Shown: positions 940 to 15,084 of the stretch, piece by piece
Layout: each line of letters starts with the position of its first letter
Numbering within the stretch: position 1 is the stretch's first letter
Assembly (NCBI GenBank): GCA_029564595.1
Contig: JAKQPS010000182.1
Location: 1-27,378 of the forward strand
Source: a bacterium
GTDB lineage: Bacteria > UBP15 > UBA6099
Reading direction: 5' to 3'
DNA: 27,378 nucleotides
Notes under the pieces: model-generated
Databases searched by the model: none
Seen by the model: only the letters and a program-made list of their open reading frames with translations
Told to the model about the DNA's origin: nothing
Translations under genes and position numbers: made by a program

Positions 940-967
940 GTCTGTAATAGCCGCATGTCGCGTTCCC

Positions 968-971
968 GGAG
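968..971 (+). promoter_or_regulatory. Ribosome binding site favouring the start at 979
   Basis: GGAG lies 7 nt before the ATG at 979. The earlier in-frame ATG at 955 has no purine-rich sequence at the right distance, so 979 is the better start. Confidence 0.5.
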
Positions 972-978
972 CGTATCA

Positions 979-3900
979 ATGTCTCATGATAAAATGAATC
1001 AGCTAATCGAAGCGTTGAGAGACATGCCTGCTTCGGGCGAAAAAGGTTTCGAAGGACTGATAGCGACGCTTCTTGGAAAGCTTCTGGATGAGGAGTTTGT
1101 GGTGGCGCGGTCAGGCAGCCAACCGGGCGGCGATGCGCATAGCGTTTCCGGCGGTGTTACAATGCAGGCAAAACGATATAAAGAATCGACGAGTTTTAAC
1201 CTGAATGAAATCGAAGGAGGAATAAATCAGTGTTTACGGCTGCACAGAGACTTGCAGTGCTATGTACTGGCCACAACTAGATCACTGGATGGACAAACGC
1301 AAACTCGGTTGAAAGATATTTCCAATGAAACGGGTCTTGATATTGTTGTGCTGGATCATCGAATTGATGGGTTTTCCGATCTGTTCTGCCTGTGTGTAAC
1401 TTACTGGGACTCTATCTTGTCTTTCACTCCTATAAAAAAGTTGGAACCTGCTTTTCAAGATTGGGCAAGAACTCAGAGCCAAACAACTGAAGTTAAATCA
1501 AGAACGAGAGAAATCGAAAAGCGCGTAAAAGAACTTATTGGGAGTTACAGCTCAGTGTGCGCCACCGCAACAGACAAACTTGAAGAAAGATTTGGAATAA
1601 AACCGTCGCAAAAGCATTTTTCGTACAATATAAACCTAGAGAAATCCGTGAGAAGGCAGTCTGTTGAAAAAGAAATTTCGGAATGGTGGAGCGATGCAAA
1701 CAAGGAAGCGGCTTGTCTTGAAGGTGAGGAAGGAACAGGCAAGTCATGGGCGGCCGCGCTCGCGATAAGGAATATTCCTGAGATGTCTAATACCCTTGTC
1801 CTCTGGATGGACAGTTCGGCTTGGTGCGAAAAAAATAGTGTCAAAGAATCGTTAAGGGTGGGATTCGAAACAATTGAACCATTGAATACGGGCCGGACAG
1901 ACAAGCTTGTTGAAAAAACTCTAAAAAGATGGAAAGAGCCGATTCTGATAGTTTTTGACGGTGTGAATGAGAAAGCCGCCGTCAAAGCCGCCAACAGAAT
2001 ACTAAATGATTATAACAATGTATATTCATCGAACAACGATGTTGACTTATCCCACATAAGACTGCTATTTACCAGTAGGCTTTTACCCAATATCTCCGAA
2101 TATGACAAAAGAGCATGGCAAAATGTCAAATCAATACCAGTCAAGGAGTACGACGATGGTGAGTTGGCTGATGCGCTGAGGATATTCGATGCTCAGATTC
2201 GCACTGAAGATATTCCGGAGAGTATTAAGCCATATATGAAAATACCGCGATATTTCGGCGTTTGCTTAAAGATGAGAAAACGGCTGGGAGTGCTGTCAAA
2301 TATCTCAAAGGAGATAATCCTTTGGGAAGACCTCAAATCGAGAATTGACGAAACAGACGACCAAACAAGGAATAAGCTTGGATGGCAGAATGAGAGAGAC
2401 GCCGAAGATGTTTTATCGATGCTGGCTCAAAATGCTGTTGAAATAAAAGGGCAGCAAACAGCCGAAAAAGAGTTGCTCGATAAGTGTTTTGACAATAAAT
2501 ACGATAGCATTAGGCAACACCTTAGAGAACTTAGAATTGCCGAAAAAGCAGATAAGTTTCATGCCATTTTAAGCGAGGAGCATGTTAAGCTGGGTTGGGC
2601 GCTGTACATTCTTAATAAAGTAGGAATCATAGATGAAAATCAAAGCGTATTGGCAGTCGCCAATGATATCAGGGCACTTTTGGAACCGATACCTTCAGAC
2701 GACATACGAACAGAAGCTCTTTATTCAGCGTTGCTGCTGAGTGTGAATGACAAGTCGAAGCTCGGAGTTTCGCCTGAAAAAAAGCGCGCCGCATTGCTTC
2801 ATTGCTGGCTGTTTTCCAACAATGCGGACATCAACGTTGAGAAGCTGGACTTCTGGGCCAACGAGGACATAGAGGCTTATCTTGGGCTTATCGACGTTTT
2901 TTCCCACGAGCTATATCAAGGCGAACTTCAGATGTTTATTTTTTATCCGTTGGCAAAGGTTTGGAAACAGAGCGCTCTGGATATTATCAAAAAACATATC
3001 GAACAGTGGCTGCTGCTTGTTCACACTCCGAACAGCGACGCGTCGGGGTTCTACGAATACAAGGGGCACAGTTTCCCGATAGCATTTAATAAAGACCATC
3101 TCCGACTATCCGCTCTCGCCGTGTCCCTCGTCTCGATTCAACCTGACATAAAGTTTCTAAAAGCGCTCGCGCTTTCCATGGTTACTTGGAATCTGCCTTT
3201 TTATGAAGTTGATGGCTTAAAAAGACATCCCAAGGATATCAGGAATAATATCGGCTTGATTATGAGATGGGTTTATACGGAGAAGGCTTTTAAAAACATA
3301 CAAGACTTAGCGGCGGAGAACAAGGAAGACAAGTTGCTTCTGGAAGGACTGCAACTGCTTACGCGCAGTCTAGGCGTTATTGATCCGCCGCAGGAGCTTC
3401 AATATGCAAGCCAATCCGTGCCATGGTATGAAACATTGATCCAACGCATCGAAAACAAAGAACCTCTTTTCGAGGCGGGAGAAAAGGTGTTCGGCTCTTT
3501 AAATTCTCTTGCGGCCAGAACGGATCTTCCAGAAATCCGATGTTTGGACAAGAGGGAGATATTTCGCAGATTTGAAGACCTATGCCGCAACAGAAAACCA
3601 AAACGACATGAAGGCGCCGTTGAAGAAGACGATCCTTTTGATGAATATCTGCCGTGGGTGGCGCGATACTGTCCCGATGAATTGGCAGAGTTGATGAGCG
3701 TGTTGCGGACAAGAGCGTTTAGCAACGAACATCCTAGCATCCTATTTAATAAGACTTCCGGCATATATCACTTTTCTGAATCAGCCCAAGATAATGAAAG
3801 CATTGTGGACAGCATCATAACTGCGACTAATAAATACATTTCAGAGCTTCACAGCAACAGAGCATATATCGTTTCTGTGTTTTTCGAATCAATTATCTTG

Positions 3901-5691
3901 CACGCCGCCCCTGATAAGCTGAAACAATGGTTCGAGTTATTGTCAACCGACGAACAGACCAGAAAAGGCATTTTGGTGTTTGACACCAAACCATTGCTCA
4001 TGAAGTATTTGTTAAAGTCCGAGATGGCGGAATACGCAAAAGATAAAACATTAGGTGCTTTCGAATCTTGTATCCTTCTTGATGAGATAGACATTAAAGT
4101 GTCTGAATTCGCGTTCTGGAGTTTCATCGCATCGAGCACACATGAAACAGATGAAACATTCTTTGAATGGGCGAAAGCCCGATTAATTGAGAATGGAGCA
4201 AGCCATCCGACAAATTATTATCTTTTCTATATAGCGGCAAGTCGCGGCTCAAGCAATTGGCTCAAAGACATTTTAAATGATGATAATCTTTTCCCACTCA
4301 TCGATGAACGCGCTGTCAGGGCTTTTGTTGACAGCAGTAAACCTTTTCCATCTACGTTGTCAACAAACAGGACTTATGAAGAGCTAATGCGTGTGTTGCC
4401 TAAGGATTTTGCCGGCCTTGTGCTTGCCGAAACAGGCAGAACAGAAGACTTCAATAGATGGGGGCGTGAATTGCATGAAACAGTTCGGGACAGTTTTCCT
4501 CCCTCTGACTTAGAGCCTGAATCAAGAAGCATAACGGAATACATTCTCAGCAGGGACGGAACCCCCAATAGAATACGTCAGAATCCGCCTTCCAGTAGCG
4601 TCACATTTAGAAACACTGACTCAGCAACATGGGGAGTTGACTATGGCTCCGATGGGATCGAAGACATAGAAGAGGTTTTTGATGATTCAAAAAGAGAAGA
4701 GCGGATGAGGTCGGAAGCTGAGTTGTGGAGAAAGGATCTCGAAAGAATTAATCAGTGGTCTTATGCATGGATAAATAAAATAAGATTTGTCGGACTTATA
4801 TCGGAATGGGCGAAAAGGAACGAAGAAGTATTTGTTGAGTTAGCAAAGGCATATTTGGATAGAATTAACAGGTTTGGCTTGGTTCAACACGAAATGGCTG
4901 CATTCACGCTTAAGGTTCTGTGTCTATATATTAAGCACGATCCTCACATGGCATGGGAAACATATCAGAAGCATTTCGATAAAGGCTTTCGAAGACATAG
5001 GTTAATACGCGAATATGGCACAGATGAAATATTAGCGGCTCTGTGGGATGTCGAGCTTTGCGGAACACAACAACATGATGAGTTGAGAAAAAAGATATTT
5101 GATGACAACTGGTTAAGCGACATGGATGTTATGAGAATAACTCTTGCTGCAGTTGACAATGGCGCGGAGAAATATATTCTGGGCTTTGTAAAAAAACACT
5201 ATCTCAGCGCGGATGTGGCAAGAGAAAGATGTCTAGCGGTTTCAGTTCTACCATGGCTGACAAACGCTGAAGCGCTAGATATATTGTGTGATTTAAGGGA
5301 CAACGATCCAAATCGATGGGTGCGAAACCATGCGGAATGGGCTTGTGATGTTGCCTTGAATGAGCGCTGTTGTCGCGAACTGTATAGAACAGCTTTGCGA
5401 GAAAAAGAACCGAAAAAGATGTCAGCCACGCTTCAACAAATCAAACCGGCGCTAAGCCCGGCGGCTCTCTTATGGAAAAAAATGATATTGTATGAAGAAA
5501 AGAAAAGCAACAACGTCCCTGAAAACAAAACAAATTATGCGATCAGGTTGGTGTTTTGGAGTAAACTGAGAAATAGCCTTGCGAAAACAAAGGTGAACGG
5601 AAGAGACATTGACAAATACATAAGAGGTGAAAGCATAGATTCACACAGAACGGTTCGATTAGCCCCGTGGTGGAGTGTTAAGACAGACTAG
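979..5691 (+). CDS. Mrr-like nuclease / STAND NTPase immune protein (Avs-like)
   Basis: About 1570 residues counted from the ATG at 979 (ATG 955 would add 8). Residues ~20-130 fit a PD-(D/E)xK Mrr-type endonuclease: KGFEGLIATLL with E25, PGGDA with D52, and MQAKRY with Q63 and K65 as the Q-x-K motif. A STAND-type NTPase follows: Walker A GEEGTGKS (249-256), Walker B LIVFDGVNE (D327), and a sensor-like LLFTSR (~363-367). The remaining ~1100 residues lack catalytic motifs and look like an all-helical repeat array with many W/E/L/K helices, as in TPR- or HEAT-like sensor regions. Nuclease, STAND and long C-terminal sensor is the known plan of Avs (AVAST) proteins, where a phage protein binds the C-terminus and activates the N-terminal nuclease; the Mrr effector and total length are most like Avs4. 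No transmembrane segment is seen. It follows the helicase gene by 39 nt on the same strand. Domain calls are good; Avs membership and the trigger are inference. Confidence 0.8.
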   Translation: MSHDKMNQLIEALRDMPASGEKGFEGLIATLLGKLLDEEFVVARSGSQPGGDAHSVSGGVTMQAKRYKESTSFNLNEIEGGINQCLRLHRDLQCYVLATTRSLDGQTQTRLKDISNETGLDIVVLDHRIDGFSDLFCLCVTYWDSILSFTPIKKLEPAFQDWARTQSQTTEVKSRTREIEKRVKELIGSYSSVCATATDKLEERFGIKPSQKHFSYNINLEKSVRRQSVEKEISEWWSDANKEAACLEGEEGTGKSWAAALAIRNIPEMSNTLVLWMDSSAWCEKNSVKESLRVGFETIEPLNTGRTDKLVEKTLKRWKEPILIVFDGVNEKAAVKAANRILNDYNNVYSSNNDVDLSHIRLLFTSRLLPNISEYDKRAWQNVKSIPVKEYDDGELADALRIFDAQIRTEDIPESIKPYMKIPRYFGVCLKMRKRLGVLSNISKEIILWEDLKSRIDETDDQTRNKLGWQNERDAEDVLSMLAQNAVEIKGQQTAEKELLDKCFDNKYDSIRQHLRELRIAEKADKFHAILSEEHVKLGWALYILNKVGIIDENQSVLAVANDIRALLEPIPSDDIRTEALYSALLLSVNDKSKLGVSPEKKRAALLHCWLFSNNADINVEKLDFWANEDIEAYLGLIDVFSHELYQGELQMFIFYPLAKVWKQSALDIIKKHIEQWLLLVHTPNSDASGFYEYKGHSFPIAFNKDHLRLSALAVSLVSIQPDIKFLKALALSMVTWNLPFYEVDGLKRHPKDIRNNIGLIMRWVYTEKAFKNIQDLAAENKEDKLLLEGLQLLTRSLGVIDPPQELQYASQSVPWYETLIQRIENKEPLFEAGEKVFGSLNSLAARTDLPEIRCLDKREIFRRFEDLCRNRKPKRHEGAVEEDDPFDEYLPWVARYCPDELAELMSVLRTRAFSNEHPSILFNKTSGIYHFSESAQDNESIVDSIITATNKYISELHSNRAYIVSVFFESIILHAAPDKLKQWFELLSTDEQTRKGILVFDTKPLLMKYLLKSEMAEYAKDKTLGAFESCILLDEIDIKVSEFAFWSFIASSTHETDETFFEWAKARLIENGASHPTNYYLFYIAASRGSSNWLKDILNDDNLFPLIDERAVRAFVDSSKPFPSTLSTNRTYEELMRVLPKDFAGLVLAETGRTEDFNRWGRELHETVRDSFPPSDLEPESRSITEYILSRDGTPNRIRQNPPSSSVTFRNTDSATWGVDYGSDGIEDIEEVFDDSKREERMRSEAELWRKDLERINQWSYAWINKIRFVGLISEWAKRNEEVFVELAKAYLDRINRFGLVQHEMAAFTLKVLCLYIKHDPHMAWETYQKHFDKGFRRHRLIREYGTDEILAALWDVELCGTQQHDELRKKIFDDNWLSDMDVMRITLAAVDNGAEKYILGFVKKHYLSADVARERCLAVSVLPWLTNAEALDILCDLRDNDPNRWVRNHAEWACDVALNERCCRELYRTALREKEPKKMSATLQQIKPALSPAALLWKKMILYEEKKSNNVPENKTNYAIRLVFWSKLRNSLAKTKVNGRDIDKYIRGESIDSHRTVRLAPWWSVKTD

Positions 5692-5777
5692 CATTCCATC
5701 GGCAAGATAATGCCTGCATATATCCACATAAATAAAGTGATTTTTCAGAAAGACAATACTAATGACGATACGTTGAA

Positions 5778-6002
5778 TAAGTTTTCCCTTAAAATCCCTT
5801 TCAAAATCTTTCATGCCAGCGCCAAAGGCAGAGCTTCGCTTCCGCCTTTGGCGCATATCAAGTGAAAAGATATTGGGAAAGAGATTTTTATGAGAATCTT
5901 CATCTTGAACATTTTCACAGGAGCGTAGTGACGGCGCGCAAGGAAAAGATTGAAGGATTTTCAAGGAAACTTTTCAAAGTTTCCTTGAACCGCCGGAGGC
6001 GC
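5778..6002 (+). repeat. Composite palindromic element, copy A
   Basis: Order of parts: the right arm only of palindrome P1 (AAGTTTTCCCTTAA; the left arm is not recognisable), the linker AAATCCCTTTCAAAATCTTTCA, hairpin H1 at 5819-5854 (arms GCGCCAAAGGC and GCCTTTGGCGC around a TTCG-containing loop), GTGAAAAGATATTGGGAAAG, CATTTTCACAGGAGCGTAG leading into TGACGGCGCGC, then palindrome P2 at 5960-5989 (14-bp stem, TC loop) and CCGCCGGAGGCGCTT. The same parts in the same order occur in copies B (+) and C (-). One A.C mismatch sits in H1 relative to copy B. No transposase or protein frame belongs to it. Confidence 0.85.
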
Positions 6003-6166
6003 TTGATGAGCGCGCGGAGTATATGCGCGTATAGTCGGCGAGGCTTGATTTCTTATTTGCGCTTTTATCATAAAACGTTGCCCGCATGCTCGAAAATCAG
6101 GAAAATTCCGTCCCCCCTGTAAGTTTGCCTGTGTTGAGAATATTTTTTATCCGGAGTTGTTTTCAG

Positions 6167-6196
6167 TTGATTGATTATGCTTTATTATGATATATT
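6167..6196 (+). promoter_or_regulatory. Possible sigma-70 promoter for the secreted-protein gene
   Basis: TTGATT (6167-6172), an 18-nt spacer and TATATT (6191-6196). The local sequence is very AT-rich, so other pairings are possible. The leader would be about 60 nt and contains GGGAGG just before the start. Confidence 0.35.
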
Positions 6197-6264
6197 GTAT
6201 GCAAAGGATTGCAAAATGGCCGTAATGTATTTTAAATTACGCTCATAATATTTGGGAGGCAAAA

Positions 6265-7179
6265 ATGGTAAAAAGACTCAAACAAACGTTTCTTGCGGCG
6301 CTGGCGGTCGCGTTGATGTTGCCGGCGGTCGCTGCTGCGACGACAGCGGCACTGCCGATAGATTCGGCGGCGGCGGCGGCAAATGTGGAGAAGATGATCG
6401 CGACTGCCACCGAGCGCCCGGAGGATTACCGTCAGCAAATTGACGCTATGATCGACCTGACGCTGCACATTCTGCGCGGCCCCGTCCCCGACGGCTCCGG
6501 TTATCAGTATGCGGAGGCGATTATCGACAAGACGGCGGAGCCGGTGACTCTGCTCAGCGAGAGGGTGAACGCGGTGTGGAAGGCAAACCAGCAGCAGACT
6601 TTCTCCGCCGAGGCGAGGACGGTCTATATGCTTCAGATTTACGCTCCGAAATACCGCTCCGGCCTTTTCAGGAACAACGGCGACACTTATGTTGAAAAAT
6701 ACAAAGTTGAATTTTCGATTCAAGGCAAGACCCGCACGATCAACTGGGAACACAAGAACTGGATTTCCCGCGACTCGACGGTCGAAATTCCCCTGCCGGG
6801 CATAGCGGAATGGGCGAAGATAGAGATAGTGGCCGGGGTCGAAGCGTCGGACGTCGGCAACGCGATAATCGAACTTCGCGCCGTGCGCCCCATCGTCAAA
6901 GACGACCCGAAAAACCCGTTCTCATACTCGATAGACCAGTTGAAGGCGTTGCAGAAAAATATCGCGTACGCAAAGAGCGAGGCAACGCTTGAGCAGTTGA
7001 ACGAAGCTCTCGCCGGAATCAAAACCGCGCCGGTGGCGGCCGCCGCATCTTCACAGGCTTCCACGGATCAAGCCGTCGTTCAGAAGCTCGAAGCCATTTC
7101 CTCTCTGATGGACGGAAGCGAAGAGGACCGCGCAAAGGCGAAAGCCGAGTTGAAAAGCTTAATCGAATCGATGAAATAG
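6265..7179 (+). CDS. Secreted protein of unknown function (304 aa)
   Basis: I do not recognise a family. A classical signal peptide is visible: a basic start (MVKRLKQ), a hydrophobic stretch AALAVALMLPAVAAA and a likely cleavage after ~25 residues, followed by an alanine-rich stretch. Residues ~85-205 alternate hydrophobic and polar residues and are tryptophan-containing (TRTINWEHKNWISRDSTVEI), which suggests a beta-sandwich. Residues ~215-304 are charged and helical (FSYSIDQLKALQKNIAYAKS, then a Lys/Glu-rich tail), consistent with a coiled coil. GGGAGG at 6252-6257 before AAAAATGG supports the start. There is no lipobox cysteine and no membrane anchor, so it should be periplasmic or exported. 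The next gene starts 80 nt downstream on the same strand; they may or may not be co-transcribed. Confidence 0.75.
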   Translation: MVKRLKQTFLAALAVALMLPAVAAATTAALPIDSAAAAANVEKMIATATERPEDYRQQIDAMIDLTLHILRGPVPDGSGYQYAEAIIDKTAEPVTLLSERVNAVWKANQQQTFSAEARTVYMLQIYAPKYRSGLFRNNGDTYVEKYKVEFSIQGKTRTINWEHKNWISRDSTVEIPLPGIAEWAKIEIVAGVEASDVGNAIIELRAVRPIVKDDPKNPFSYSIDQLKALQKNIAYAKSEATLEQLNEALAGIKTAPVAAAASSQASTDQAVVQKLEAISSLMDGSEEDRAKAKAELKSLIESMK

Positions 7180-7258
7180 AACTGACGCGCGCGAACCGCG
7201 CGACTAAGGCGGCTCCGGAGCGACCCCGCTTCGGCGCGGCCATACGAATGGTTCGTTA

Positions 7259-7786
7259 ATGGCGAAGTATGAGTTGGGCGAAAAAAGGCCGGCGGTCGGC
7301 GACGGGACTTGGGTCCACGAGACCGCGCAGCTTATCGGCGACGTTGTGATCGGCTCCGGGTGTTTTATCGGAGCGGGGGCCGTCCTTCGGGGCGACTTCG
7401 GGAGCTGCCGCGTCGGCGACCGTTCGAGCGTTCAGGAAAGTTGCGCCATGCACTCGCGCCCCGGAGAGGTTTGTTCCGTCGGCTCCGATTCGACAATCGG
7501 CCACGGGGCCGTCCTTCACGGCTGCAAGGTGGGAGACCGCGCGGTGGTCGGCATCCACTGCGTGGTTGCGGACGGCGCGGAAGTGGGCGACGACTGCATA
7601 ATCGGGGAGAATTCTCTGGTGAAGGCGGGGATGAAGATACCCGCCGGGAGCCTCGCCGCAGGGTCGCCCGCGGTTGTGAAAGGGCCTCTGAAGGAATCGC
7701 AGATAATGATGAAAAACGCGGGGGCCGCGCTGTACGCGGACCTTGCGGCCAGATACGTCAGAGAAGCCCGCAGGCTGCCCGACTGA
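7259..7786 (+). CDS. Gamma carbonic anhydrase family hexapeptide-repeat protein
   Basis: A 175-residue left-handed beta-helix protein. The repeating hexapeptide pattern (IGDVVIGSGCFIGAGAVLRGD and onward) runs over residues ~25-145. Three histidines sit where the gamma-class metal ligands are expected: H65 (ESCAMH), H82 and H87 (IGHGAVLHGC). The GSLAAGSPA segment near residue 155 is the usual end of the helix, followed by a C-terminal alpha helix. Members either hydrate CO2 as zinc/iron trimers or are non-catalytic relatives (YrdA/PaaY/CaiE type); which applies cannot be read here. No good ribosome binding site precedes the ATG. The stop is only 6 nt from the stop of the convergent alpha/beta hydrolase gene, leaving no room for a separate terminator. 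Confidence 0.88.
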   Translation: MAKYELGEKRPAVGDGTWVHETAQLIGDVVIGSGCFIGAGAVLRGDFGSCRVGDRSSVQESCAMHSRPGEVCSVGSDSTIGHGAVLHGCKVGDRAVVGIHCVVADGAEVGDDCIIGENSLVKAGMKIPAGSLAAGSPAVVKGPLKESQIMMKNAGAALYADLAARYVREARRLPD

Positions 7787-7792
7787 ACGCGC

Positions 7793-8518
7793 TCACGCGA
7801 ACCGTTTTATCCAGTCCAAGCACAACGAGAGAAAGATTTCCCTGTGTTCATGGCGCGTGAACGCGTGGTCGGCTCCGGGAACGATCTCAAGCCGCTTTGG
7901 CTCGACGGCAATCGCGTGGATGCGTTCGGCGTGCCAAGACGGAATCAGTTCGTCGTCCGAGCCGTGGCACGTCAGAAGGCGCGAAGCGCGCGCGCACATC
8001 GCGGGAATGTCGTGTCCCGCCGCGTCCGTCTCCAGCGCCCGCTTCACCCTCGTTCCGTCGCCGAGATTGATGTAATCGCCGTCGCGGGAATACTCCGGGC
8101 CTAGACGCGGAAAGAAATCGAAGTTGAACGGGGTGGCGCAAATAACGGAGCAGAAAGGCCGCGCGGTTTCCGCCGCCGCAAGAGCCGTCAGGCCCCCGAA
8201 ACTGCTGCCGATCAGCGCTATGCCGCGAGCGCCGAAACGCTCTCTGACGAAACCGGCCGCGGCCGCAAGCTCGGCGGCGCGCCCCGTAAGCGTGATGTCC
8301 TCGAACTTCCCTTCGCTCTCCCCTATGCCGCTGTGATCGAACCTGAAAGCGGAAATCCCCGCCGCCGCCAACCCCTCGCACACGAACGTCCATTTTTCGC
8401 TGTCTTTCGAGCCTGCGAACCCGTGGCTAATCACCGCCGCCGGAGCGCCCGCGCTCCCGGCTTCATGCCACGCCCCCGCAAGTCTCAACCCTGCATGTTC
8501 AAATGGCATTTTTTCCAT
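7793..8518 (-). CDS. Alpha/beta hydrolase (esterase/peptidase-like)
   Basis: 241 residues from the ATG at 8518. The fold markers are in order: oxyanion-loop SHGFAGSKDS (31-40), FRFDHSGIGESEG (59-70), nucleophile elbow GSSFGG with S106, acid D189 in HGSDDELIP, and H218 in PGADHAF. This is the dienelactone-hydrolase/BAAT-like small serine hydrolase type; the substrate is unknown. No signal peptide is seen, so it is cytoplasmic. The frame stays open to 8599, but those 27 extra codons are a translation of repeat element B (MKGILRENFFKSF) and are not believed. A TATAAT box ends 6 nt before this ATG, so the mRNA may be leaderless. If the second ATG (8509) is used, three residues are lost. Confidence 0.85.
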   Translation of the reverse strand: MEKMPFEHAGLRLAGAWHEAGSAGAPAAVISHGFAGSKDSEKWTFVCEGLAAAGISAFRFDHSGIGESEGKFEDITLTGRAAELAAAAGFVRERFGARGIALIGSSFGGLTALAAAETARPFCSVICATPFNFDFFPRLGPEYSRDGDYINLGDGTRVKRALETDAAGHDIPAMCARASRLLTCHGSDDELIPSWHAERIHAIAVEPKRLEIVPGADHAFTRHEHREIFLSLCLDWIKRFA

Positions 8519-8524
8519 GTTTGT

Positions 8525-8553
8525 ATTATACGGGCAAGAAAAACTTATTGGAA
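8525..8553 (-). promoter_or_regulatory. -10 box (TATAAT) with weak -35, directly before the hydrolase start
   Basis: On the minus strand TATAAT (8530-8525) lies 6 nt before the ATG at 8518. The sequence 17 nt upstream, TTCCAA, is a weak -35 and abuts the first palindrome of repeat B at 8554. Initiation about 7 nt after the -10 would begin at the A of the ATG. Confidence 0.5.
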
Positions 8554-8820
8554 TTAAGGTAAAACTTTTGAAAAAGTTTTCCCTTAAAATCCCTTTCAAA
8601 ACATTTCATGCCAGCGCCAAAGGCGGAGCTTCGCTTCCGCCTTTGGCGCGTATCGTGTGAAAAGATATCGATAGCGTTTTCTATGAGAATCTTTTTCTTG
8701 AACATTTTCACAGGAGCGTAGTGACGGCGCGCTGCAGCGCGCCGTCACTACGCGCAAGGAAAAATTTGAAGGATTTTCAAGGAAACTTTTCAAAGTTTCC
8801 TTGAACCGCCGGAGGCGCTT
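8554..8820 (+). repeat. Composite palindromic element, copy B
   Basis: The complete version on the plus strand. P1 at 8554-8587 (16-bp arms, GA loop, one mismatch at T8560); linker AAATCCCTTTCAAAACATTTCA; hairpin H1 (14-bp stem GCGCCAAAGGCGGA/TCCGCCTTTGGCGC); an outer pair TGTGAAAA (8656-8663) with TTTTCACA (8705-8712); a perfect 38-nt palindrome (8716-8753); P2 at 8776-8805 (14-bp stem, TC loop); then CCGCCGGAGGCGCTT. It matches copy A part for part except for the longer 38-nt palindrome. It lies between the hydrolase promoter and the 3' end of the GH172 gene. Confidence 0.9.
8716..8753. repeat. Perfect 38-nt palindrome inside copy B
   Basis: From GCGTAGTGACGGCGCGC through the central TGCA to the exact reverse complement: 19 base pairs with no mismatch. 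Copy A has only the left arm here, so the two copies differ by a 23-nt insertion or deletion. Confidence 0.9.
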
Positions 8821-8836
8821 TAAAAGCATGTCGATT

Positions 8837-8866
8837 AAGGGAAAACTTTTGAAAAAGTTTTCCCTT
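8837..8866. repeat. Extra P1 palindrome at the 3' end of the GH172 gene
   Basis: AAGGGAAAACTTTT, loop GA, then AAAAGTTTTCCCTT: a perfect 14-bp stem. It ends 22 nt from the GH172 stop codon and may serve as a transcription end for the minus-strand gene, although no clean T-run follows the stem. Confidence 0.85.
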
Positions 8867-8888
8867 GACTCTCCGTTTCGCGCTCTGT

Positions 8889-9950
8889 TTACTTCGTCAG
8901 GCGGTTGATTTTTTCGAACATATTCATGCCTATTTCGAGTATGTCGGAGGCCGCGTATTTCGCATTTTTGAGCAGGAATCCGTCGTCCGGCAGCCTGTCT
9001 TCGGCGGGCGGGAAAGAGCCCATCGGCTTATGTGGCTCAGTCTGATACCAGTATGCCACGCTTGAGTAGTCGGAGCCGGGCGCGTCGTTAATGCCGCCGT
9101 GTTCGATAGTGGCCCTAATGCTTTTCTTGAAAGGGATAGGATCGTTCACATGGAATCTATAGGCGGAGATGCGGGAGCGCAGGGGGTCCTTGATGGTGAG
9201 GCCGTGGTAAGGGCCGGCGAAAGCGCCGTTGACGAAGTACCACCCGCTGTTGAAGTAGTCCTCCGTTCCGGTTCCGTGTATGGCGGGAGGATGTTGCTCG
9301 CCGTCAACATATATCATCTCGTCGCCTTCGAGGAACCAGAAAGAGAAAGGCCTGCGGCCCTGCATTGAGAGGTTGCAGCCGACGTAGTGGCCGGAGCCAT
9401 CGGCTTCTAGTATGGTGTAGTTCGAGCCGGGGAGGGTTCTCTCGTGCCGCCAGCGCGCGTGGAACCTGCCCGTTTTCGAGTCGTTCTCCGGGGCGTCTTC
9501 CTTGTTGTAGCCGATGTTGTAGTAGAGGGCGTTGATTTTTTTCGAGCTTTGGTTCTCTATCTCGATGCGCGCGCCCTTGGAGAACGGCATCGGGAAGTAT
9601 GAGTAGAAACCTCCGCTGGACATTCCGAGAGGGATGGAGGTGTAGTGCCTGTAGTTTGCGAAACCCACGCCGAAGAAATCGCCGACCGGCGACTCGACGC
9701 TGGGCGCGGACTCTCCGTCCCAGTACATGCGAAGCACGCAGTTGCGCAGGATGTACAAGTCAGGCGAGGCGATAGTGATCCAAATCCTAGTTATGCGGCC
9801 CGCGCCGGAGATATCCGCCAGAACGGCTTTGTCCTCTGAGTTGACCCGCACGTAGTCGTTGTTGCCGCCCGTGCGGTCGAAGCTGGATTCCTGCGCCGCC
9901 TTGAACGCTTTCAGCAGCGGCAGCCCGTCGAGGTCGTTTGCAGATTTCAT
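8889..9950 (-). CDS. GH172 / DUF2961 family glycoside hydrolase
   Basis: 353 residues, the usual length for a single-domain member. Family features seen: the N-terminal segment around NSEDKAVLADISGAGRITRIW, then NCVLRMYWDGESAPSVESP and VGDFFGVGF (the beta-sandwich with the typical PVGDFFG), and the signature HGTGTEDYFNSGW at about residue 229, whose Glu belongs to the conserved acidic pair of the family. Characterised GH172 enzymes act on fructofuranosides (difructose anhydride) or arabinofuranosides; the substrate cannot be told here. No signal peptide is seen, so it seems cytoplasmic and would act on imported sugars. GGGGAGA lies upstream of the ATG at the right spacing. Its promoter is at 9992-10020. 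The 3' end abuts the P1 palindrome at 8837. Confidence 0.87.
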   Translation of the reverse strand: MKSANDLDGLPLLKAFKAAQESSFDRTGGNNDYVRVNSEDKAVLADISGAGRITRIWITIASPDLYILRNCVLRMYWDGESAPSVESPVGDFFGVGFANYRHYTSIPLGMSSGGFYSYFPMPFSKGARIEIENQSSKKINALYYNIGYNKEDAPENDSKTGRFHARWRHERTLPGSNYTILEADGSGHYVGCNLSMQGRRPFSFWFLEGDEMIYVDGEQHPPAIHGTGTEDYFNSGWYFVNGAFAGPYHGLTIKDPLRSRISAYRFHVNDPIPFKKSIRATIEHGGINDAPGSDYSSVAYWYQTEPHKPMGSFPPAEDRLPDDGFLLKNAKYAASDILEIGMNMFEKINRLTK

Positions 9951-9991
9951 ATCCGTTCTCCCCGCAAAAATATTGTCGCGATGCGTTTATG

Positions 9992-10020
9992 ATTATACGC
10001 GCGAGGCGATTATATGAAAA
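9992..10020 (-). promoter_or_regulatory. Promoter of the GH172 gene
   Basis: On the minus strand TTTTCA (10020-10015), a 17-nt spacer and TATAAT (9997-9992), about 40 nt before the start codon. Confidence 0.5.
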
Positions 10021-10066
10021 GCGCGAGGGAGAAGCGGACTAAGAGATGGCCGCTTGCGCAAAAGCG

Positions 10067-10912
10067 TCAGATGATTATTTCTGCGGAAGGCTCGCGCTGT
10101 GCGGCCACATCTATCAGGATGTGGTCTTCTCCGACAAGCCGGAGGGAATCCCTGACGGCGTCGAGAGCAAGCTTGGGCGTGTTGCAGTCTTCGCTAAGGT
10201 GAAGGAGGAGAATGTGTTTGACGCTGCCCCTGCTGCGGGATGCCACGCGCGCGGCAGTCCTGCCGCACTGCTCGTTCGACAGATGCCCGCGCCCGCCAAG
10301 CACCCAGTCGACAAGAAACCTCGGCCGCCCCGAATCCAGTTCCGAGCGGACATCGTGGTTGCACTCGATAGCCAGCGCGTCGGCTCCGAGCATGGCTTCT
10401 TCGGCCTCAGGCGTGACTTCGCCGAGATCGGTGGCAAAGGCGAAAGATTTTCGGGAGGCCCCCTCGACGTGGCTTATGCGGAACCCCACCGGGCGGCCCA
10501 CGATGTCCCTGTTCCAGCCGCCTGAGCCGTGCGGGACGGCGAACGGCCCGATAGTCAGTTCTCCCATCGGGAAAGGAGCGTCGTCGAATTTTCTCACGAG
10601 GCCCGCTCGGTCAAGCTCGGCGAATTTCTTCGACCGCCTTAAAAGGTCCTCGAACGACTCGGCGTGCACGTACAGAGGTATGCCGTGCCTGCGGCATATC
10701 GGATACGTCACTCCGGCGTCAACGTGGTCGCCGTGCATGTGTGTAGCCAGCACGCCGTTCACGTCGTCGAGCGAAACCCCTCGCTCGGACAGCCTGTCGG
10801 TTATGTAGTTTATTCCGAGGCGCGCGGCGTCGATAAGCAGCCGCGTTCCACGCTCGGTCTCGACCAGCGAGCAGTTTCCGCCGCTGCCGCTTCCGAGGTT
10901 GACAAGTTTCAT
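10067..10912 (-). CDS. WalJ/YycJ-type metallo-beta-lactamase-fold hydrolase
   Basis: 281 residues from ATG 10912. It starts with MKLVNLGSGSGGNC, typical of the YycJ/WalJ group, and contains a full two-metal site: H58, H60, D62, H63 (THMHGDH), H128 (VPHGS), D162 (FATDLG) and H238 (LLHLSEDCNTP, a YycJ-specific motif), plus IECNHD at 183-188. Group members are DNA-processing exonucleases or related phosphodiesterases; the function here is inferred by family only. The same frame continues 171 codons upstream, but that stretch is Arg-rich antiframe translation of the nitrilase gene and is not part of the protein. The start is 35 nt after the nitrilase stop, so the two are an operon read from 11793. 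Confidence 0.87.
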   Translation of the reverse strand: MKLVNLGSGSGGNCSLVETERGTRLLIDAARLGINYITDRLSERGVSLDDVNGVLATHMHGDHVDAGVTYPICRRHGIPLYVHAESFEDLLRRSKKFAELDRAGLVRKFDDAPFPMGELTIGPFAVPHGSGGWNRDIVGRPVGFRISHVEGASRKSFAFATDLGEVTPEAEEAMLGADALAIECNHDVRSELDSGRPRFLVDWVLGGRGHLSNEQCGRTAARVASRSRGSVKHILLLHLSEDCNTPKLALDAVRDSLRLVGEDHILIDVAAQREPSAEIII

Positions 10913-10947
10913 TCTCAATTCCGGAAATTCCTTTCGCCGCCTGAAGA

Positions 10948-11793
10948 TCAGGTCTCCGAGCGAACGCCTGCCGCATAAGGGCCGCAGACGCGCAACGGAG
11001 ACTCGGCGCGCTCTCGCAACGCCTTCACATCCTCGATGTACGGCCACCTGCTTCTCTGGTCGGAGACGCGCCACATCTCTAGGGAGGCCCTCAACACGGT
11101 CTCTTCCTCGCCGGCGGACGCGATGATGTCTCCCGACGGCCCGCAGACGACTGAGCCGCCCGTGACCGCCCTGCCGTCCAGATAGCGCGCGCCCATGTTG
11201 TTGACGAACGCGGCGAACACGACGTTCTCCGCGGCGCGCGCGGCGGCCAGCCCCCTCCACAACTCCAGCCTCTGTCCGGGAATGTTTCCCGGATTGAACA
11301 CGACTTCGGCTCCGGCGAGCGCCATCTCCCTGACTATCTCCGGATACATCATGTCCACGCACACCGCGACGCCGCACCTGACGCCGGCGACGTCGAACAG
11401 CGCCAGCCCGTCTCCGCCCTCGCAAAATTTCCTCTCGCCAATAGCGCCGGAAGGGAATATTTTCTTCTGCGCGCAGAGAGTCCGTCCGTCCGGGCCGACA
11501 ACGTGGCAGATGTCCTCCACCCTGCCGCCGGAGTTCACGAACAGCCCTCCGGTCAGAACATGAAACCTTTTCTCCCCGGCTATCTCGCCGATGTCAGCGA
11601 GCAGGGAGTCGATCTCCGCCTCTTCCAGAATCGCGGCTCCGATCCACACCTCCGAAAAACACACGACATCCGCGCCCTCTATCGCGCGGAGCGTCTCAAG
11701 CGCCCTCGCCTTGTTCGAGTCTATGCGATGCAGTTCGCGCCGGAACTGTATCAGCGCGACATTGAGTTTCCTGTCGTCTTCCGCCTTAACCAT
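10948..11793 (-). CDS. Nitrilase-superfamily carbon-nitrogen hydrolase
   Basis: 281 residues from ATG 11793 (MVKAEDDRKLNVALIQF). The catalytic triad of the superfamily is visible: E48 (VVCFSEVW), K110/K111 (CAQKKIFPSG) and C145 (GVAVCVDMMYPE), followed by GAEVVFNPGN and the AARAAENVVFAAFVNN segment. Such enzymes hydrolyse amides or nitriles (omega-amidase, N-carbamoyl-amine amidase and others); I cannot narrow the substrate. There is no glutaminase-channel fusion or membrane domain. A strong promoter (TTGATA, 17 nt, TATAAT) ends exactly 7 nt before the ATG, which both fixes the start and suggests a leaderless mRNA. The frame is open 12 codons further upstream, but that would lie across the -10 box. 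First gene of the operon with the MBL hydrolase. Confidence 0.87.
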   Translation of the reverse strand: MVKAEDDRKLNVALIQFRRELHRIDSNKARALETLRAIEGADVVCFSEVWIGAAILEEAEIDSLLADIGEIAGEKRFHVLTGGLFVNSGGRVEDICHVVGPDGRTLCAQKKIFPSGAIGERKFCEGGDGLALFDVAGVRCGVAVCVDMMYPEIVREMALAGAEVVFNPGNIPGQRLELWRGLAAARAAENVVFAAFVNNMGARYLDGRAVTGGSVVCGPSGDIIASAGEEETVLRASLEMWRVSDQRSRWPYIEDVKALRERAESPLRVCGPYAAGVRSET

Positions 11794-11800
11794 AAAGCAG

Positions 11801-11829
11801 ATTATATGGAAGGCTGGGCGACATATCAA
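11801..11829 (-). promoter_or_regulatory. Strong sigma-70 promoter of the nitrilase-MBL operon
   Basis: On the minus strand TTGATA (11829-11824), a 17-nt spacer and TATAAT (11806-11801). That is 11 of 12 consensus bases. The ATG follows after 7 nt. Confidence 0.75.
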
Positions 11830-11861
11830 CGCGCGCGCGCATCCCTTTTTTCGCCGGGAGT

Positions 11862-11890
11862 TTAAAATGCGCGGGTAGCGCGGCTACAAT
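11862..11890 (+). promoter_or_regulatory. Promoter of murB
   Basis: TTAAAA (11862-11867), 17 nt, TACAAT (11885-11890), then 7 nt to the murB ATG. No ribosome binding site is present between them. It is back to back with the nitrilase promoter. Confidence 0.55.
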
Positions 11891-11897
11891 TTGCGTT

Positions 11898-12803
11898 ATG
11901 AGCTGGGTGGAAGAAGTTAAAAGAATCGCGCGCGGACGGGTCTTGGAAAAAGAGCCTATGTCTCGGCGCACGACATTCCGCGTCGGCGGGCCGTGCGAAG
12001 CCTTCTTCTGTCCCGAAGGCGCGGACGACTTGGCCGCCGTCTTGAAATTCCTCCGCGCGGAGGGCATACGGCATATTGTCATAGGGCAAGGCTCGAACGT
12101 CCTTTTTCCCGACGATGGATACGACGGATGCGTGGCGGGCGTCGGAAACGGGATGTCGAAAGTGGAGTTCGACCCCGGAAAGCTGGAGGCGGAAGCCGAA
12201 GCTGGAGCTTCCCTGAACGAGCTTGCGCTTGAGACAGCCGCGCGCGGAATGGCCGGACTGGAATCTCTCGCGGGCATACCCGGCTCTGCGGGCGGCGCGG
12301 TGTTCATGAACGCGGGCGCTTTCGGAGCTTGGATATCCGGCCCGCTGACGTCCGTCGATTTTATCTCTGCCGATGGTGAGCGCGTCCGGCTCGACGCGGC
12401 TGAACTGGACTTCGGATACCGCCGCAGCTCGTTTCAGGACAACCCCGGCTGCGCGATAGTCTCCGCGAGGTTCGCGTTCGCGCCCGGCGACCCCGCCGCC
12501 CTGAAAGCCCGCGCGGCGGAAATACTTGAGTTGCGGCGCGGCAAACAGCCTCTCGACATGGGGTCCGCCGGCAGCTTCTTCAGAAACGCCGAGGACGGCG
12601 GCCCCGCGGGAAGACTCATAGACGAGGCCGGGCTTAAAGGCCGTCGCGTCGGCGGCGCGATGGTCTCCCCAAAACATGCCAACTTCATCGTCAACGCCGG
12701 AGGAGCCACCCGCGCGGACATCCTCGCCCTCGCCGACATCGTGTCCTCCCGCGTCAAAGAACTCTTCGGCGTCGTCCTCGTCCCGGAAGTCAGAATCATC
12801 TGA
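11898..12803 (+). CDS. murB: UDP-N-acetylmuramate dehydrogenase (UDP-N-acetylenolpyruvoylglucosamine reductase)
   Basis: 301 residues, the normal length of a type II MurB. This FAD enzyme reduces enolpyruvyl-UDP-GlcNAc to UDP-MurNAc with NADPH in cytoplasmic peptidoglycan precursor synthesis. FAD-domain motifs are TTFRVGGPCEAF (25-36), GQGSNVLF (63-70) and GIPGSAGGAVFMNAGAFG (126-143). Catalytic residues by family comparison are R175 in the YRxSxF-like YRRSSF, S226 in GSAGSFFRN as proton donor, and E297 in VPEVRII. It lacks the Tyr-loop of type I enzymes. It stands alone rather than in a dcw cluster. It diverges from the nitrilase operon and converges on the D-aminoacylase-like gene. Confidence 0.96.
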   Translation: MSWVEEVKRIARGRVLEKEPMSRRTTFRVGGPCEAFFCPEGADDLAAVLKFLRAEGIRHIVIGQGSNVLFPDDGYDGCVAGVGNGMSKVEFDPGKLEAEAEAGASLNELALETAARGMAGLESLAGIPGSAGGAVFMNAGAFGAWISGPLTSVDFISADGERVRLDAAELDFGYRRSSFQDNPGCAIVSARFAFAPGDPAALKARAAEILELRRGKQPLDMGSAGSFFRNAEDGGPAGRLIDEAGLKGRRVGGAMVSPKHANFIVNAGGATRADILALADIVSSRVKELFGVVLVPEVRII

Positions 12804-12813
12804 CGCGCTGCAA

Positions 12814-12850
12814 CCCTTTTCAAAGAGTTTTCCCCAACCGCCTGCGGCGG
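12814..12850 (+). repeat. Possible worn 3' end of the composite element
   Basis: CCCTTTTCAAAGAGTTTTCC followed by CCAACCGCCTGCGGCGG resembles the P2-plus-CCGCCGGAGGCG end of copies A and B, with several mismatches. It lies between two convergent genes. Confidence 0.3.
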
Positions 12851-12928
12851 CCGCGCGCCTCATGCTTTTCCTTGTTCTTCTTTCTTTTCTTCTTCTTTCG
12901 CTTTTCCCATTTTCCATCCGCCGGAAAA

Positions 12929-14665
12929 TCAGCCGCCGTTTCTCAGAGCGCGGCCTGCGAGGCGGCTTTTGTCGAACCTGCCGTCGTCCAGAATGTGGAA
13001 GCCGTTGATTAGGACATGATCGATGCCTGACGGAGTCCCCACGGGGTTGAAGAAATCCACGTTGGGAGCGATCATGTCGGGATCGAACACTAGCAGGTCG
13101 GCGAAATAGCCTTCTTTGACGATGCCGCGTTGTTTAAGGTTGAACTGTTCTGCGGGCAGGCCGGTGGTTTTGTGTATGGCAGTTGGGAGATCAAGCATCT
13201 TTTTCTCCCGCACATATCGGCTGAAGAACTTGGGGAACGCGCCGTAGAACAGGTGCGACGGCTTGCCGAATCCCATCAGGATGGTGTCCGTGCTTATCTG
13301 GACGTCCGGGTGAGCGAGAGCGGCGAAGATGGACTGCTCGGTGAAGTTGTCCTCCGGGCGGCCCGCCGACGAGAAGACGAGCACCCTGCCCTCTTCCTCC
13401 ACCAGCAGGTCGCAGATGAAGTCGAACGGATGCTTGCCGGCGTCCTTTGCCAAGTCCGAAACGCGTTTGCCTTCGCAGCATTTGTTCTTGTCGGTGACGA
13501 CGGACATGATGCGCGTGCAGTCCCAGCCGAGCAGTTTGAAGATGTTGAGAGACCAACTGCTTTTGCCGGTGTGGGGCCACAGCATGTCGCCCTGTTCGAT
13601 GTCGCGCCTTATCTTGCGCCTGATGGCGCGGCTGGTGAGGCGCTCGCCGATTTCCTCTTTGTCGCCCTTGAGGGTCCACGGGGGGAAGTAGGCCATAAGG
13701 TGCGTGAAGGTGGTGGTGGTGGGCATGACGTCCACGCCTATCTTCTGCCCCTGTGAGTTCATTTTTGAAATTCTATTTAGCTGTTTCTCAATCTCGGCAT
13801 CCAGCTTCATCGGGAGAGTCCAGTATTGAGAAAGCTCGATCATGAGGCCGGCGAACGCGCGGATGAACGGGCCGAGCAGGCCCATGTCAGGAACCCAGAA
13901 GAGGTGCGACACCTGAGCGCGGATGTCGTTGGCGCGCGCCACTTCGGCAAGCTCGTCTATAGCCTTTTCGAGGTCGTTCATGTATGTTCGCAGGTGGCTG
14001 ACGTACATCCCGTCGTAGTCGGACAGCACGCTTCCGAGGCGCACCAGTTCGCGGGTGTCGCTTTGAAGGCCGGGCATGTACTGAAGGCCGGTGGAGAGTC
14101 CGATGCAGCCCGCGTCCATGCAGCGCTCTAGCGAGAGAGACATGCGGGATATCTCCTCGTTCGTGGCTTTTCTGGGCTGCATGCCCATCGCGTCGATGCG
14201 GATGAGGCCGTGCGGCGCGAGCAGCGCGAAGTTGAGCAGCGCCCCGTTGCCCTCGATGTGATCGAAGAACCCGGCGGTGTCTTTCCACGGAATGTCTTTA
14301 AGCTCGCGCGCGGTGAACCCTTCGAGATATGTCTTCATGTCGGAGTAATACTCGTCGGAGAAGGGAGCCATGGACATGCCGCAGTTGCCGCCGACGAAGG
14401 TGGTTATGCCTTGGCGGACCAGAGGCTCCAGAACGTCAGCGTGGTCTTTGCGGTGTATAGTCAGGTCCGCGTGCGAATGCGGGTCGATTATGCCCGGACA
14501 AACCGTCTTGCCGGTCGCGTCGATTACCCGGCAGCCGTTCGCCGACGCGAGCGCGCCGTTCCGCTCCACCGCCTTTATCTTGTCTCCCTTGACCGCGACG
14601 TCCGCCTTGAATCCGGGTTTCCCCGTTCCGTCTATAACCGTTCCGTTCTTGATTATCAGGTCCAA
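12929..14665 (-). CDS. N-acyl-D-amino-acid deacylase (D-aminoacylase) family amidohydrolase
   Basis: 578 residues. It begins as amidohydrolases do (MDLIIKNGTVIDGTGKPGFK) and ends with a beta-sandwich returning strand (GYFADLLVFDPD, GIDHVLINGFHIL). Metal and catalytic residues match the D-aminoacylase pattern: H63 and H65 (GIIDPHSHAD), C95 (VGGNCGMS, the bridging Cys of this subgroup), H224 (YVSHLRTY), H254 (QVSHLF) and D460 (ISTDTI). Characterised members remove acyl groups from N-acyl-D-amino acids; related dihydroorotase-like enzymes exist, so the substrate is open. No signal peptide is visible. The start is TTG at 14665-14663, supported by GAGGGG 8 nt upstream. It is an isolated minus-strand gene between murB and repeat C. 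Confidence 0.88.
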   Translation of the reverse strand: MDLIIKNGTVIDGTGKPGFKADVAVKGDKIKAVERNGALASANGCRVIDATGKTVCPGIIDPHSHADLTIHRKDHADVLEPLVRQGITTFVGGNCGMSMAPFSDEYYSDMKTYLEGFTARELKDIPWKDTAGFFDHIEGNGALLNFALLAPHGLIRIDAMGMQPRKATNEEISRMSLSLERCMDAGCIGLSTGLQYMPGLQSDTRELVRLGSVLSDYDGMYVSHLRTYMNDLEKAIDELAEVARANDIRAQVSHLFWVPDMGLLGPFIRAFAGLMIELSQYWTLPMKLDAEIEKQLNRISKMNSQGQKIGVDVMPTTTTFTHLMAYFPPWTLKGDKEEIGERLTSRAIRRKIRRDIEQGDMLWPHTGKSSWSLNIFKLLGWDCTRIMSVVTDKNKCCEGKRVSDLAKDAGKHPFDFICDLLVEEEGRVLVFSSAGRPEDNFTEQSIFAALAHPDVQISTDTILMGFGKPSHLFYGAFPKFFSRYVREKKMLDLPTAIHKTTGLPAEQFNLKQRGIVKEGYFADLLVFDPDMIAPNVDFFNPVGTPSGIDHVLINGFHILDDGRFDKSRLAGRALRNGG

Positions 14666-14673
14666 TGTCGGTT

Positions 14674-14679
14674 CCCCTC
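14674..14679 (-). promoter_or_regulatory. Ribosome binding site supporting a TTG start
   Basis: GAGGGG on the minus strand ends 8 nt before the TTG that opens the D-aminoacylase-like gene. No in-frame ATG lies at a suitable distance. Confidence 0.55.
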
Positions 14680-14766
14680 GCGATGAATTTCAAACGCCCA
14701 TGCGGCCGTTTTGATAGAGCATATAGAAGAGAGCGGCAAATATCAACACCCGGCGCGCGCGGTTGG

Positions 14767-15043
14767 GCCTCCGGCGGCCAAAGAGAAACTTTTGAAAAAG
14801 TTTCTCTTTGGATTCTCTTCAAAACGTTTCGATGGTCGTCGGGAGCGAATCGCTGCCGCGCTTCCCCTCCCGACGCCCTATTTAAAATCATTTATGAATA
14901 ATATTCCACTGAAAACCCTTTCCCAATATCTTTTCACATGTGCGCGGCGGAGCGGAGGCGCGAACGCGCCCGCTTCGCCGCGCGCATTGAAACGTTTTGA
15001 AAGGGATTTTAAGGGAAAACTTTTTCAAAAGTTTTCCCTTAAA
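14767..15043 (-). repeat. Composite palindromic element, copy C (inverted)
   Basis: Read on the minus strand from 15043: P1 (15043-15008, 17-bp stem with TC/GA loop, perfect); the linker AAATCCCTTTCAAAACGTTTCA; hairpin H1 at 14983-14942 with different arms from A and B (GCGCGGCG with CGCCGCGC, then AGCG/CGCT and GGCGCG/CGCGCC); GTGAAAAGATATTGGGAAAG; a diverged middle; hairpin H2 (14875-14837, 9-bp stem CGTCGGGAG/CTCCCGACG); P2 (14811-14778, a perfect 16-bp stem of different sequence); and CCGCCGGAGGC. Part order and linkers equal those of A and B. It fills the space between two divergent genes and ends 42 nt before the chosen cobO start. Confidence 0.85.
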
Positions 15044-15084
15044 TTATAATGAGCCTGCGATTCGGAAGCGAACGGGGAAAAGCC

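Follow-up and report, generated by a model that had tools for sequence, protein, structure and literature searches.

We describe here a window of 27,378 nt from a bacterium of the UBP15 lineage (assembly GCA_029564595.1, contig JAKQPS010000182.1, positions 1 to 27,378 of the forward strand), in which three copies of a hairpin-rich element lie between genes. Our verdict is that this element represents a new repeat family that resembles the REPINs, paired and inverted repetitive extragenic palindromic (REP) sequences, but for which no REP-associated tyrosine transposase (RAYT) was found in this genome. A complete element, about 270 nt long, runs from an outer palindrome (P1) through a linker, a hairpin (HP1), a conserved middle and a second hairpin (HP2) to another outer palindrome (P2) and a tail; the right end comes in two types, R1 and R2. 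The first-pass annotation of the window had reported three like copies with one common module order. All three are real and share that order, although only B and C are complete, copy A lacking the left P1 arm and the HP2 3' arm. The copies, their parts and a neighbouring palindrome are placed as follows.

5773-6002, plus strand: copy A, truncated; P1 right arm about 5779-5790, linker, HP1 5819-5854, middle, HP2 remnant 5921-5939, P2 5960-5989, tail 5990-6000
8554-8820, plus strand: copy B, complete, with an R2-type right end; P1 8554-8585, HP1 8614-8649, HP2 8716-8753, P2 8776-8805, tail 8806-8816
8543-8666, minus strand: left unit of copy B as matched by the right-unit covariance model (E 1.2e-10, model positions 1-124)
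8835-8866, plus strand: orphan P1-type palindrome beside copy B
14767-15043, minus strand: copy C, complete, with an R1-type right end; P1 15009-15042, HP1 about 14942-14985, HP2 about 14835-14877, P2 14778-14811, tail 14767-14777
14928-15051, plus strand: left unit of copy C as matched by the right-unit covariance model (E 4.7e-17, model positions 1-124)

The genes around copies A and B are in tandem, those around copy C divergent. In copy A the P1 left arm is replaced by DNA adjoining the gene at 955-5691, and the second hairpin stops at 5939 (compare 8716-8753 in copy B), slippage between GCGCGC repeats having apparently removed its 3' arm. The palindrome core AAACTTTTSAAAAGTTT, allowing up to three mismatches, occurs six times in the window against 0.05 expected, and none of 100 shuffled sequences reached six. 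The word CCGCCGGAGGC, the usual right border across the family, occurs five times with up to one mismatch against 1.35 expected, which is weakly above chance. Folding z-scores relative to shuffles were -11.6 for copy B and -9.8 for copy C as RNA, and -12.9 for the bottom strand of copy C as DNA. A palindrome of the orphan P1 type also adjoins a DUF2961 gene in the related genome ADurb.Bin236.

The full element consists of two inverted copies of a single unit of about 110-125 nt, made of an outer palindrome, a CCCTTTCAAAA-type linker and an inner hairpin, with the CCGCCGGAGGC tail on the right side. The left unit reads TTAAGGGAAAACTTTTGAAAAAGTTTTCCCTT, AAAATCCCTTTCAAAAC, TTTCA and HP1; the right unit, read inward on the other strand, gives CCAAAGAGAAACTTTTGAAAAAGTTTCTCTTTGG, AATCTCTTCAAAACGTTTCA and HP2; and the conserved middle, beginning GTGAAAAGATATTGGGAAAG, separates the two. 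A covariance model of the right unit matches the left units of copies B and C in reverse complement over its full length, and the left-unit model likewise matches right units in reverse complement at full length (E 1.5e-13 and 2e-11). P1 and P2, which had been annotated as separate modules, are thus the outer palindromes of two inverted unit copies. Several left ends in the sister genus (G004) start with the right tail in reverse complement, GCCTCCGGCGG or a near variant. HP1, like the right end, has two types, and several combinations of the two occur. Some copies stand in tandem, joined by GCGCTTTAAAAGCATGTCGA or similar sequence, and some carry inserted GGGGCGACCC-type repeats. Another repeat, starting CCTGATTCCCCCTGAAACTCATATAG, was found inserted in element copies L013, L020, L025 and L058 and in L119 and L130; four of these insertions fall at one position (after AATGATTT or similar), and the repeat also occurs in the middle of P1.

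The inner hairpins covary. Standard pairs fill 96.8% of the pair cells in 17 copies of the R2 type, and both sides have changed in 51 cells, where shuffles give 13.6 and structures slid along the sequence 4-10. The covarying changes are located in HP1 and HP2; P1, P2 and the linker stem are almost invariant and so say nothing of pairing either way. When hairpin halves were swapped between copies, folding energy fell modestly, an effect kept small by how much alike the copies are.

The first-pass annotation would have been refuted by a lack of further copies in the genome, but further copies exist: BLAST with copy B matched 136 pieces, and each unit model scored more than 100 matches (141 and 132). 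The three congeners hold very similar copies, with 113-133 unit-model matches each, and the sister genus has a divergent version of the element (96 and 73 matches); beyond it, G005 gave 2 and 1 and the other seven genomes 0. These are not copy numbers, since each model also picks up units of the other kind and no more than 150 candidates per genome were scored. Among about 85,000 species genomes, an exact 29-mer from the left end was found only in ADurb.Bin236, UBA6099 and USCA_metabat.19_sub, and among 290 genomes an exact right-module pattern did not occur outside this genome, the three congeners and the sister genus. The UBA6099 record is labelled UBP15, and we place the window in the same genus from its kinship assignment and from the 89-95% identity of shared stretches. 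A match to an Rfam family would likewise have refuted it, but none was found, and a literature search found no bacterial repeat with GCCTCCGGCGG. The family is large, confined to one uncultivated lineage (UBP15), and apparently undescribed.

Sites of the element are fixed. Taking elements from this genome, UBA6099 and USCA_metabat.19_sub, we sought their flanks in 2.0 Mb of ADurb.Bin236 contigs that had been chosen by size and not by element content. (One of them, C1, carrying L145-L150, is foreign DNA at 28% GC against 50-59% elsewhere; it had no effect on the site tests.) Wherever both flanks were colinear the element was present (25 of 25 comparisons, 18 distinct sites), and none of the 18 sites was empty. 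Copy C has the same location in ADurb.Bin236 and UBA6099. Target duplications, a check the annotation had proposed, were not recognised on inspection of the flanks. A candidate empty site at ADurb.Bin236 C6:21511, relative to C59:41660 of this genome, was rejected as a tandem expansion of a related repeat family. That family has the same layout with another palindrome (GGGGAAAAACCCTTTGAAAAGGGTTCTTTCCCC), another linker (AAACCCCTTTCCCAAACTTTTCA) and a GCGCC...GGCGC hairpin, and lies at C6 21400-21900 and 17500-17700 in ADurb.Bin236 (G003) and at C59 39000 and 41650 in this genome.

At orthologous sites the flanks are similar and the interiors often differ. The right end is R1 in one genome and R2 in the other at the pairs L060/L053, L051/L073, L076/L101, L055/L132 and L043/L142, the HP1 type differs at L029/L106 and L076/L101, and in L043 the P2 is a hybrid between its two types. 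Deletion can account for some swapped interiors, as discussed below; others seem to need exchange between copies.

Elements are also associated with chromosomal breakpoints. For 14 other sites the flanks are separated from each other in ADurb.Bin236, and of the flanks that reach the element edge 17 of 22 abut another element there; for informative single flanks the figure is 20 of 26. On the ADurb.Bin236 side an element occupies 14 of 37 intergenic synteny breakpoints compared with 11.2% of gaps (P 2e-5), and for this genome the figures are 11 of 40 and 11.7% (P 0.005). Copies A and B of the window are both located on synteny breaks. Copy A joins a gene for a 1578-aa protein to half a P1, and an identical junction recurs in ADurb.Bin236 beside other interiors; in all three congeners the DNA right of copy A follows an element without the 1578-aa gene. 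This gene (955-5691) encodes a P-loop-type protein with a weak NPHP3_N match and terminates at the half P1, as do homologous genes in ADurb.Bin236 (L068 and L069), which have other interiors downstream. The region 955-5778 is possibly a mobile or defence-like island bordered by the palindrome.

With a probability of roughly 0.6, we read the family as a lineage-specific, intergenic DNA repeat of the REPIN or BIME (bacterial interspersed mosaic element) kind, whose copies spread in an ancestor through an activity probably acting in trans and which now changes mainly by recombination between copies. The spread would have taken place in the ancestor of the UBP15 lineage, by a mobilising activity that was probably trans-acting. 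Present-day change would come mainly from homologous recombination between dispersed or tandem copies, which the palindromes may promote, and this recombination would exchange interiors and at times rearrange the chromosome. The inner hairpins would stay paired at the DNA level, as cruciforms or single-strand hairpins, either because mobility needed the folding or through correction of one palindrome arm against the other.

Several points weigh against this reading. First, deletion from composite copies (L044, L049) can explain some of the swapped interiors. Second, the breakpoint excess depends on the background: against length-weighted gaps it is weaker in ADurb.Bin236 (19.4%, P 0.007), and on the side of this genome P rises to 0.26 (22.1%). 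Third, no mobilising enzyme or autonomous copy was found among the copies examined. Fourth, all of the genomes are metagenome assemblies, many contig ends coincide with elements, and a short-read assembler may misjoin at repeats. The neighbours of copy B, left and right, lie apart in all three congeners, where its junction is absent; this junction may reflect either a genuine rearrangement or a misassembly. The copy A junction was found again in a second assembly, but misassembly could account for some junctions, and reads would be needed to judge it.

A possible objection, though an unlikely one, is that these are gene-end elements under selection, acting as bidirectional terminators or as 3'-protecting hairpins of genes that often converge. 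Among the 55 elements with called neighbours on both sides (using a simple open reading frame caller), the flanking genes are convergent in 27, tandem in 22 and divergent in 6, whereas the 730 gaps overall divide into 152, 408 and 170; many element ends lie within tens of bases or less of a stop codon; and every colinear site has been retained. However, REPs in other bacteria are biased towards the same locations (PMC3733652), and in the window copies A and B have tandem neighbours and copy C divergent ones. Nor did the first-pass annotation's suggestion of a termination site find support: no canonical intrinsic terminator (a GC-rich stem followed by a T run) was found at copies A or B, and the single weak terminator-like match at copy C is P2 itself and does not exceed shuffles. 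Separately, a promoter-like TTTTCA-17-TATAAT at 15022-15050 overlaps the outer edge of copy C ahead of a cobO-type gene, so that P1 may supply a -35 element.

We also consider it rather unlikely that the family is an active transposable repeat, driven by a RAYT or of the miniature inverted-repeat transposable element (MITE) kind, that still inserts at new sites. Its high copy number, intergenic placement, inverted repeats at both ends and very similar copies in three congeners are what such a repeat would show. The absence of empty sites and of recognised target duplications argues otherwise, as does the search for a mover. The Pfam PF01797 (Y1 transposase, TnpA_REP/RAYT) had no match in this genome or in ADurb.Bin236, and in these incomplete and fragmented genomes no transposase was found between paired ends among the copies examined. 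Weak to moderate PF01797 matches do occur in G001, G002 and G004-G006, where a link to the element was not established. A Y1 transposase, absent from this genome, was rejected as the mover, and so was IS110, since a single IS110-family transposase gene was found in the genome (L066 1-1065, minus strand, on G000:C123) and that gene lies inside one of the elements, much as IS110-family insertion sequences (IS) do in REPs elsewhere. Of the annotation's proposal of a MITE or moved REP cluster, what survives is the REP cluster or non-autonomous repeat, which fits best, although no recent transposition was seen.

The structured-RNA reading, another proposal of the annotation, now appears improbable; small RNAs or elements of 3' untranslated regions would then be kept paired in P1, HP1, HP2 and P2 by selection on RNA. 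The strong folding of copies B and C and the strong hairpin covariation would suit it, and many copies lie just 3' of genes and are therefore probably transcribed. Selection on RNA would, however, leave more G-U than A-C intermediates on the transcribed strand, and by a rough count of distinct events, made without a tree, G-T intermediates (8 in HP1, 13 in HP2) are about as frequent as A-C intermediates (6 and 11), which favours pairing at the DNA level. The HP2 tetraloops are mostly GNNA and not GNRA, elements occur in either orientation relative to their neighbours, divergent gene pairs included, and Rfam has no match. GNA and GNNA loops are generally stable in DNA. The HP1 apex is GC-TNC-GC in 84 of 85 copies, or GCGNAGC on the bottom strand, and d(GCGAAGC) is described in PMC6582339, citing Hirao 1994, as an extraordinarily stable DNA hairpin. 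In the sister genus the stem is entirely different (GCAATTCC...GGAATTGC) yet paired, and the GCTTCGC apex is partly kept. Taken together, the balance of intermediates, the conserved loops and this stem replacement favour DNA-level hairpins over RNA-level pairing.

Least probable of all is that the elements are folded DNA sites, attC-like but genome-wide, of a dedicated host-recombinase system that exchanges cassettes and rearranges the chromosome.

Elsewhere in the window, a reading frame of 2350 aa (19082-26134) contains many internal repeats, of 42 nt and of longer units, whose number differs between the window and ADurb.Bin236.

A RAYT gene is thought to maintain REPINs. With the present family, the range of REPIN-like repeats comes to include an uncultivated phylum, where the unit is larger and has two hairpins and where no RAYT gene was found in this genome. 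Its fixed sites, part exchange and rearrangement can be traced site by site over four related genomes, and the equal G-T and A-C counts together with the conserved hairpin loops make the maintenance of DNA-level hairpins directly testable. In practical terms, metagenome assemblies of the UBP15 lineage break, and may misjoin, at these repeats.

Among known systems, MITEs are likewise short, non-coding and numerous, with imperfect terminal inverted repeats, but for this family we found neither a parent transposon nor target duplications nor empty sites. The BIMEs of E. coli are similar in being mosaic arrays of alternating inverted palindromic units and linkers and in being IS targets, as REPs are known to be (PMC1525189); they differ in that the two units of our family enclose two more covarying hairpins, the sequences having been compared through Rfam only. 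REPs tagged with GTAG or CGTC (PMC3733652) also lie mostly between convergent or unidirectional genes, their units are often oppositely paired, and the CGTC REPs too are without a known transposase (PMC3733652). Our family is instead bordered by CCGCCGGAGGC, and neither tag is conserved beside P1 (within 12 nt, on both strands, GTAG at 12 and CGTC at 2 of 234 occurrences).

The closest likeness is to the REPINs or REP doublets of Pseudomonas and enterobacteria (PMC3116915, PMC8049555), in which inverted palindromic units surround a variable, paired sequence. Like them, the family has paired inverted palindromic units that form a larger hairpin, compensatory hairpin changes (reported for REPIN spacers in PMC3116915), hundreds of intergenic copies that lie 3' of genes and between convergent or tandem genes (49 of 55), and long persistence (millions of years for REPINs; PMC8049555). 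It thus works as REPINs do while departing from the tag and the RAYT by which they are defined, having no GTAG or CGTC tag and no RAYT-type gene found in this genome. Its scale is also different, with two hairpins in units of about 110-125 nt where a REP has 20-40 nt, and unlike REPINs it shows interiors swapped between species at fixed sites.

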